From Ktedonosporobacter rubrisoli (GTDB lineage Bacteria; Chloroflexota; Ktedonobacteria; Ktedonobacterales; Ktedonobacteraceae), in NCBI RefSeq assembly GCF_004208415.1, contig NZ_CP035758.1:1240001-1304000 (forward strand): a DNA stretch of 64,000 nt, in the 5' to 3' direction. The notes below the pieces were generated by a model, which saw nothing but the letters and a program-made list of their open reading frames with translations, ran no database searches and was not told the DNA's origin. This document shows positions 12,885 through 57,268 of this stretch, piece after piece (position 1 is the stretch's first letter; each line of letters opens with the position of its first letter). Position numbers and translations under genes: made by a program.

Positions 12885-13100
12885 ATGGGCGAGAATGCTA
12901 CTACGTTTAATTCTGACGCATTTGATCTTGATATCCGTATTGCTTCTATTGGAGATACAAGCCTGGATGCTGATAACTTGACTACATACGGAATTCCTGC
13001 CGATCAACTAGCTGGCACACGCACAATTGTCTACTCAACAATTCCCTCTCCTTGTTGGCGCTCCGACGTATGTGGGTACAGAGACCGTGGCAGCCGATGA
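12885..13100 (+). CDS. Putative FxLD-type lanthipeptide precursor A
   Basis: 71-aa peptide with the leader motif FDLDIRI at residues 13-19, the class I (FxLD) lanthipeptide recognition box, followed by a hydrophilic stretch and a C-terminal Ser/Thr/Cys-bearing core (TIVYSTIPSPCWRSDVCGYR) with two Cys. This is the least typical of the three precursors: the spacer is long and the core ends in a charged tail. A reading-frame error near the core is possible. AAGAAAGGG lies eight bases before ATG, a tandem promoter-like repeat lies upstream and a strong hairpin lies downstream (13142-13175), so it looks like a self-contained transcription unit. No LanB, LanC or LanT gene is near. Confidence 0.55.
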   Translation: MGENATTFNSDAFDLDIRIASIGDTSLDADNLTTYGIPADQLAGTRTIVYSTIPSPCWRSDVCGYRDRGSR

Positions 13101-18877: not shown

Positions 18878-19078
18878 TCAGCAGCCACAGGTACAATATG
18901 TCTGCCGCGTATCACAGTTATCGCAGGTAGCGTGACACGACCAGCAAGTCGTACAATTGGTGGGGAAGTACGTATCCGCTGGGCGAAGCGCGTCTGTGGG
19001 AAGGTCTGAGATGCGCACATCCAGCTCAAAGTCATCCCCAACACTCATCAATTCATCCAGCATCACTGATACACCCAT
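18878..19078 (-). CDS. FxLD-type lanthipeptide precursor B
   Basis: 66-aa precursor. The leader (1-37) carries the class I box FELDVRI at residues 16-22 and acidic residues before it. The core is rich in Cys, Thr and Ser: NCTTCWSCHATCDNCD, then TRQTYCTCGC, with eight Cys and seven Ser/Thr, dense enough for several thioether rings. The start at ATG 19078 follows GAAGGAAGG; the leader context TTTCTATGAAGGAAGG matches the one before precursor C at 57065. In known FxLD systems LanB dehydrates Ser/Thr and LanC closes the rings, with LanT or ABC export; none is within the window. A Cys-rich metal-binding peptide is the alternative. Confidence 0.75.
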   Translation of the reverse strand: MGVSVMLDELMSVGDDFELDVRISDLPTDALRPADTYFPTNCTTCWSCHATCDNCDTRQTYCTCGC

Positions 19079-19343
19079 GTGCAAAATCCTTCCTTCATAG
19101 AAACCAGCAACAAGCAGAACAGAACACCTTGCAAAGCTCAAGGCATTCCCTCTATACAGGATACTAAGACCTGCAAATCGAAAAGTCCCAATCATTCTCG
19201 TCGGGACCCGCTGATGGCCCGCCCGCGAAACAAAAAGCGGTGTGAGTGTGATCTAGCGTCAACTTACTCACCCCAAAGTGCCGTTATTGGCTGCAGCAAA
19301 CTCTTGACAAATGTTCTAAAAATATGTTACCATTTAGTCACAT

Positions 19344-56937: not shown

Positions 56938-57064
56938 TACTATTGGGAAGCATCCGTAGCTATTCTAGGTGATAGACACGTATATAAAAAGCAATGTATG
57001 CTTTAAGGTGAGAGTTAAGGAATATACTCTCATTATAGTTTCCTATGAAAGGAGTCATCGTAGA

Positions 57065-57268
57065 ATGGCAGAAATCGTGTTTGGCAGCCCTGTACTTGAG
57101 CGTACACCAGAGTTAGTAGATGAGTTTGAGCTCGACGTTCGTATCACTTCTCCTGAGGATGGCCGGACGCCAATCCCAGGATTGAGCGGAAGCGATTGCA
57201 CTTTATGCGCCTCTTGCTACACCGACTGCAATATGTGTAATACCAATGACACCTGGTGCGGTTGTTAG
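57065..57268 (+). CDS. FxLD-type lanthipeptide precursor C
   Basis: 67-aa precursor. The leader holds the class I box FELDVRI at residues 21-27 after an acidic helix (ERTPELVDE). The core, GSDCTLCASCYTDCNMCN then TNDTWCGC, has seven Cys with Ser/Thr before or between them. It aligns with precursor B (CTTCWSCHATCDNCDTRQ) in spacing: C-T-x-C-x-S-C-x3-C-x2-C-x-T. ATG 57065 follows GAAAGGAG in the context TTTCCTATGAAAGGAG, close to the context at precursor B. No LanB/LanC/LanT gene is within the window. Alternative: a Cys-rich metal-binding peptide. Confidence 0.75.
   Translation: MAEIVFGSPVLERTPELVDEFELDVRITSPEDGRTPIPGLSGSDCTLCASCYTDCNMCNTNDTWCGC

Follow-up and report, generated by a model that had tools for sequence, protein, structure and literature searches.

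Predicted class I lanthipeptide precursors with FxLD leaders scattered away from LanB and LanC genes in Ktedonosporobacter rubrisoli

Two short, cysteine-rich peptides encoded in a 64,000-nucleotide stretch of the K. rubrisoli genome (positions 1,240,001-1,304,000 of a single contig of 11,340,617 bases; hereafter the window) are probably, judging from their sequences, class I lanthipeptide precursors that are handled by distant enzymes. They possess the features of a class I precursor (LanA), namely an FxLD leader box, a core rich in Cys, Ser and Thr, homology to precursors that adjoin LanB and LanC genes, and the presence of LanB and LanC in the genome. The best reading of the analysis is that they would belong to a dispersed class I set processed in trans, an equivalent within class I of the prochlorosins, whose class II precursor genes are scattered. 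The features are listed in Table 1.

Table 1. Precursors, their elements and candidate enzymes (positions are those of the window unless a genome or locus position is indicated)
Feature	Position	Strand	Basis
Lone FxLD class I lanthipeptide precursor (predicted), 67 aa, MAEIVFGSPVLERTPELVDEFELDVRITSPEDGRTPIPGLSGSDCTLCASCYTDCNMCNTNDTWCGC	57065..57268	+	ORF with ATG; profile match E 4.6e-16
Shine-Dalgarno-like site GAAAGGAG, 10 nt 5' of the ATG of the 57065 ORF	57047..57054	+	sequence
Leader box FELDVRI of the 57065 peptide	57125..57145	+	degenerate pattern match, genome 1297125-1297144
Cys/Ser/Thr-rich core of the 57065 peptide, 7 Cys, CTLCASCYTDCNMC...C.C	57197..57265	+	sequence and motif check
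Lone FxLD class I lanthipeptide precursor (predicted), 66 aa, MGVSVMLDELMSVGDDFELDVRISDLPTDALRPADTYFPTNCTTCWSCHATCDNCDTRQTYCTCGC	18878..19078	-	ORF with ATG; profile match E 9.2e-16
Shine-Dalgarno-like site AAGGAAGG, 9 nt 5' of the ATG of the 18878 ORF	19088..19095	-	sequence
Leader box FELDVRI of the 18878 peptide	19010..19030	-	degenerate pattern match, genome 1259011-1259030
Cys/Ser/Thr-rich core of the 18878 peptide, 8 Cys	18881..18955	-	sequence and motif check
Third, weaker FxLD precursor (probable), 71 aa, FDLDIRI box, MGENATTFNSDAFDLDIRIASIGDTSLDADNLTTYGIPADQLAGTRTIVYSTIPSPCWRSDVCGYRDRGSR	12885..13100	+	profile E 0.007; ORF, GAAAGGG site
Candidate LanB, 1,090 aa	L049:11233-14505, genome 1.126-1.131 Mb		two-domain LanB
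Candidate LanC	L049:14549-15934, genome 1.126-1.131 Mb		zinc-ligand motifs
Lone set of four precursors	genome 30-33 kb		census
Lone set of six precursors	genome 7.89 Mb		census
Single lone precursors	genome 0.399, 1.253, 1.259, 1.297, 1.386, 2.421, 2.939, 3.011, 6.737, 7.298, 11.048 Mb		census

Both open reading frames were recovered at the positions and on the strands given in a preliminary description of this DNA, and each has an ATG start and a Shine-Dalgarno-like site. The similarity of ribosome-site contexts claimed there extends to both sites being purine-rich, but they bear no special likeness to each other. The proposed common leader box and alignable Cys core are borne out letter for letter: a six-frame reading of the window gives FELDVRI exactly twice, the CTxCxSCx3Cx2C core is literally present in both the 57065 peptide (CTLCASCYTDCNMC) and the 18878 peptide (CTTCWSCHATCDNC), and the two peptides are 39% identical across 61 residues (E 4e-13). 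C-terminal to the box, the former carries seven Cys and 10 Ser/Thr and the latter eight Cys and 11 Ser/Thr, as lanthionine rings require. A degenerate DNA pattern for FELDVRI occurs at 19 places in the genome (0 for a reversed control), and six further Ktedonobacteraceae genomes (~56 Mb) yielded zero matches at E<=0.01 to a family profile built from 20 FxLD peptides (alignment A1), all 20 of which carry the box. The likeness of the two peptides is thus not due to chance. A third peptide of the window, at 12885-13100, was absent from the earlier list; it has merely two Cys in its tail and a weak profile score.

As the preliminary description stated, each of the two precursors is alone, since the window contains no LanB, LanC or recognisable remnant of either. 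No LanB or LanC lies within 100 kb of either ORF; the nearest are 123-170 kb away, outside any common cluster. Clustering with LanB and LanC is usual but not chemically required, so this distance lowers the probability of an ordinary class I cluster and not that of a class I precursor. The flanking genes encode a PepSY protein, ArsR/AHSA1, MFS, P450, BBE oxidase, DoxX and SDR proteins and a beta-eliminating (threonine-aldolase-like) lyase, none of them a known RiPP enzyme, and neither a transporter nor a protease could be assigned. A shared upstream promoter element between the window peptides and the precursors at 1.131 Mb was sought and was absent; resemblance upstream of the genes is confined to copies that belong to one and the same set (those at 30-33 kb, 1.13 Mb, 6.57 Mb and 7.89 Mb).

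Comparison with the FxLD family models, which had been suggested as a check, had a divided outcome: no non-RiPP family scored above its cut-off, but the curated NCBIfam lanthipeptide-leader models miss the peptides. The NCBIfam FxLD model did not match the window peptides, and the best score of any leader model, and the sole hit to a lanthipeptide model, was that of NF038155 (E 1.8, 9.5 bits against a cut-off of 20). A function as small Cys-rich metal-binding proteins (mini-ferredoxins) is highly improbable for these peptides. The core does contain an exact CxxCxxCxxxC, which is the [4Fe-4S] spacing, and there are weak matches to NCBIfam iron-sulfur SdhB models (best E 0.0094), but the best score of 14.7 bits is far under the 349-bit cut-off and comes from the Cys run alone. 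In addition, the leader box is kept family-wide while Cys spacing differs among paralogues, and homologues of the peptides adjoin LanB and LanC. The peptides also differ from prochlorosin-like precursors, which combine a class II LanM with a Nif11/GG leader, in that their leaders are of the FxLD type and homologous to those of class I-adjoining precursors.

The search for further FxLD peptides showed a dispersal that exceeds the two precursors first described. The family profile together with a motif scan detected about 34 precursor-like ORFs with FxLD leaders in the genome, the weakest of which (E of about 0.001 or higher, the 12885-13100 peptide among them) are less certain than the others. 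With lone precursors defined as those separated by more than 20 kb from every LanB and LanC, 21 of the 34 are lone, three are found with LanC only (0.203, 0.570 and 10.704 Mb), three with LanB only (all at 6.57 Mb) and seven with both. These numbers, set against six LanB and 10 LanC genes, describe a dispersed precursor set. The lone set at 7.89 Mb (L053:10189-11708, minus strand) consists of six tandem precursors whose leaders are almost identical and whose tails are short and variable, with two or three Cys.

At eight loci FxLD peptides directly adjoin LanB, LanC or both, and the window peptides show homology to those. The nearest homologue of the 57065 peptide is a precursor at 1.131 Mb that adjoins LanB and LanC (47% identity, E 1.2e-9; 68.7 bits), and the precursors at 1.131-1.134 Mb give 47% identity (E 1e-9). 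Outside the window, the best match of the 18878 peptide is also the 1.131 Mb precursor (36.2 bits), which is the best or nearly best match of the 30-33 kb precursors as well. CxxCxxCxxxC or near variants of it are common to the window, 30-33 kb and 1.131 Mb precursors. At 1.131 Mb, one ORF (L049:16087-16413, minus strand) contains two box and core units in the order FELDVRV-core-FELDVRV-core.

Full-length LanB and LanC genes are present elsewhere in the genome, so the complete lack of such enzymes, which the preliminary description had named as fatal to its reading, did not occur. Together with the homologous precursors beside them, these genes support the proposal of class I precursors whose enzymes are encoded elsewhere. 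Six intact class I LanB genes, each with PF04738 and PF14028, are located at 1.127, 2.703, 3.457, 6.571, 10.353 and 10.770 Mb, and a broken LanB split across several frames lies at 10.762 Mb. There are 10 stand-alone LanC genes, in which the WCYG...CHG zinc-ligand motifs are kept, including the LanC at 1.131 Mb. In the LanC at 10.356 Mb (L056:9598-10995, minus strand), CYG replaces the CHG of the other nine, and this protein may have lost some function or rely on a different ligand. LanB and LanC genes are in part located away from one another. LanC genes at 0.203, 0.570, 2.775 and 10.703 Mb (L067, L066, L068 and L062) have no LanB within 50 kb, and for the one at 2.775 Mb no precursor was detected either. 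The 6.571 Mb locus (L052) has LanB, three precursors and ABC transporter genes with no LanC nearby; ABC transporter genes are also present, by inspection, at 10.35 Mb.

Judged by similarity, the LanB and LanC at 1.126-1.131 Mb, 130-170 kb upstream, are the best candidates for processing the window peptides because the adjoining precursors are the nearest homologues of these peptides outside the window and because both enzymes keep their conserved stretches and zinc-ligand motifs. The LanB aligns over its full length to MadB-like 9g04, MibB (5ehk) and NisB, and it retains the stretches RxTPFGLFS, YTDPxxHxRLR, ERYGG and MHxxR, which we take to be the catalytic stretches of LanB. The relationship of leader-box type to the LanB and LanC trees is suggestive and not clean, with no clean sorting by LanC clade. 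Another role for the peptides, as pearlin-type carriers that serve LanB-like peptide aminoacyl ligases or as substrates of other RiPP pathways (YcaO/LanB, thiopeptide-like), has very little probability. Pearlin carrier peptides also have an FxLD/E motif (PMC9303977), but the LanBs by the closest precursors are full-length proteins that include the elimination domain and have a LanC partner, and the peptide tails are rich in Cys and Ser/Thr, as lanthionine formation requires. Three LanB-like loci with YcaO-like neighbours (identified by reading the sequence), probably of thiopeptide/azole type, do exist at 10.65, 10.68 and 10.895 Mb (L064, L061 and L065), but no FxLD precursor was found at any of them.

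Lone precursors could also be leftovers of broken or duplicated clusters, that is, gene-copy debris that is no longer modified, and such debris is present in the genome. The region at 1.132-1.133 Mb (L049:17049-18433, minus strand) is a partly duplicated, interrupted cluster in which a truncated LanC lies beside a transposase-like ORF (1.133 Mb) and more precursor copies; a precursor copy without a good start is found at 1.1336 Mb, and there is the broken LanB at 10.762 Mb. Debris is nevertheless an unlikely origin for the lone precursors, whose ORFs are open and have ribosome sites. A search for decayed LanB or LanC near the window precursors and ten further lone loci gave nothing credible; on the debris reading, many independent loci would need to have lost their enzymes tracelessly. 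A 27%-identity fragment in L054 (E 0.005) was considered as a LanB/LanC remnant, but it was unconvincing and disappeared at E 1e-3 with fuller queries. Constraint also argues against decay: in the six-copy lone set at 7.89 Mb, pN/pS is 0.28 in the leader and 0.77 in the core, which makes the leader the more constrained part. In a mixed set that includes the window peptides the values are 0.44 and 0.52, a weak contrast with synonymous sites near saturation.

In other genomes the family was found only together with class I LanB. FxLD peptides (E<=0.001) were found in five of 60 relatives, and each of the five is one of the eight genomes whose class I LanB match is strong (hypergeometric p ~1e-5 over the 60 genomes, uncorrected for relatedness). 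The six Ktedonobacteraceae genomes in which the profile found nothing have partial or weak LanB matches only (four genomes) or none (two). One of the five genomes with FxLD peptides (G011), from a different genus, carries a lone precursor at C7:264591, with no LanB or LanC within 10 kb, and the leader of this precursor (MEQALIELRHDATFEDEFELDIRVSTPSS) nearly equals the leader (MEQALIELEHDTPVEDDFELDIRVSAPSS) of precursors that adjoin LanC-LanB on C10. A pattern scan of GTDB genomes, for which alignment A1 is too diverse to serve, gave a sole match in Micromonospora (L152), and this was rejected because the reading is antisense to a LysR-type gene.

Class I lanthipeptides are made by docking of the FxLD leader on the enzymes, glutamylation and elimination of Ser/Thr, addition of Cys, leader removal and export, and this standard chemistry is assumed here. 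In the proposed mechanism, the FELDVRI (FxLD) box in the acidic N-terminal leader would dock on the leader-binding domain of LanB and on LanC. LanB would then carry out tRNA-dependent glutamylation, followed by elimination, of core Ser and Thr, and LanC would couple the clustered Cys to the resulting dehydroamino acids, giving (methyl)lanthionines. Both enzymes would act in trans on the lone precursors, after which the leader would be removed and the product exported. For the window peptides we infer expression, docking, modification in trans, a cognate enzyme, a cleavage site, export and a role, whether antimicrobial or signalling. A broader and more tentative proposal, which we hold at somewhat less than an even chance, is that lone precursors, LanB-only loci, LanC-only loci and a few complete loci form an unclustered class I network, with substrates and enzymes exchanged between loci, in which one pool of precursors is processed combinatorially by several enzyme pairs.

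In nisin-type class I systems the genes for the precursor, LanB, LanC, transporter and protease are clustered. The K. rubrisoli system resembles them in its FxLD box (FNLD in the nisin-type leader) and in having a homologous dehydratase and cyclase (NisB and NisC), but its precursor and enzyme genes are unclustered. Class I clusters with F(E/D)LD leaders, LanB and LanC are known in Ktedonobacteria (PMC6497799). These are of the same class and share the leader motif, but their precursors lie in antiSMASH/BAGEL clusters, and no mention of lone precursors was found in that work. Class I and class III lanthipeptides with unclustered proteases are also known (paenilan and the bacinapeptins; PMC8960859). 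In those systems a needed gene is located elsewhere, as it is here, but that gene encodes the protease, and the precursor and modification enzyme are together. The closest parallel is provided by the prochlorosins and synechococsins (ProcA/ProcM and SyncA/SyncM), class II lanthipeptides of marine picocyanobacteria, in which numerous precursors likewise share a conserved leader, differ in their cores and are encoded by single genes that are scattered over the genome at a distance from the enzyme gene (PMC10783134, PMC7268733). Those systems use one class II LanM and Nif11-type GG leaders, whereas FxLD leaders and separate, multi-copy LanB and LanC genes, some of them apart, are found here. Since the FxLD leaders are homologous to those of LanB/LanC-adjoining precursors, the window peptides may work like prochlorosins without being prochlorosins.

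The open-licence papers searched contained no account of class I precursors dispersed in this way, nor of a genome that has both LanB-only and LanC-only loci, and one large survey was limited to seven genes around a LanC-domain gene (PMC7268733). Genome mining beside LanB and LanC would miss most of the precursor set described here. The LanB-only and LanC-only loci offer a way to test the exchange of dehydratases and cyclases between class I pathways. If the lone precursors are processed, the class I enzymes of this bacterium would be shared, leader-directed processors, as ProcM is, and the Ktedonobacteria would hold many more lanthipeptides than their clusters suggest.
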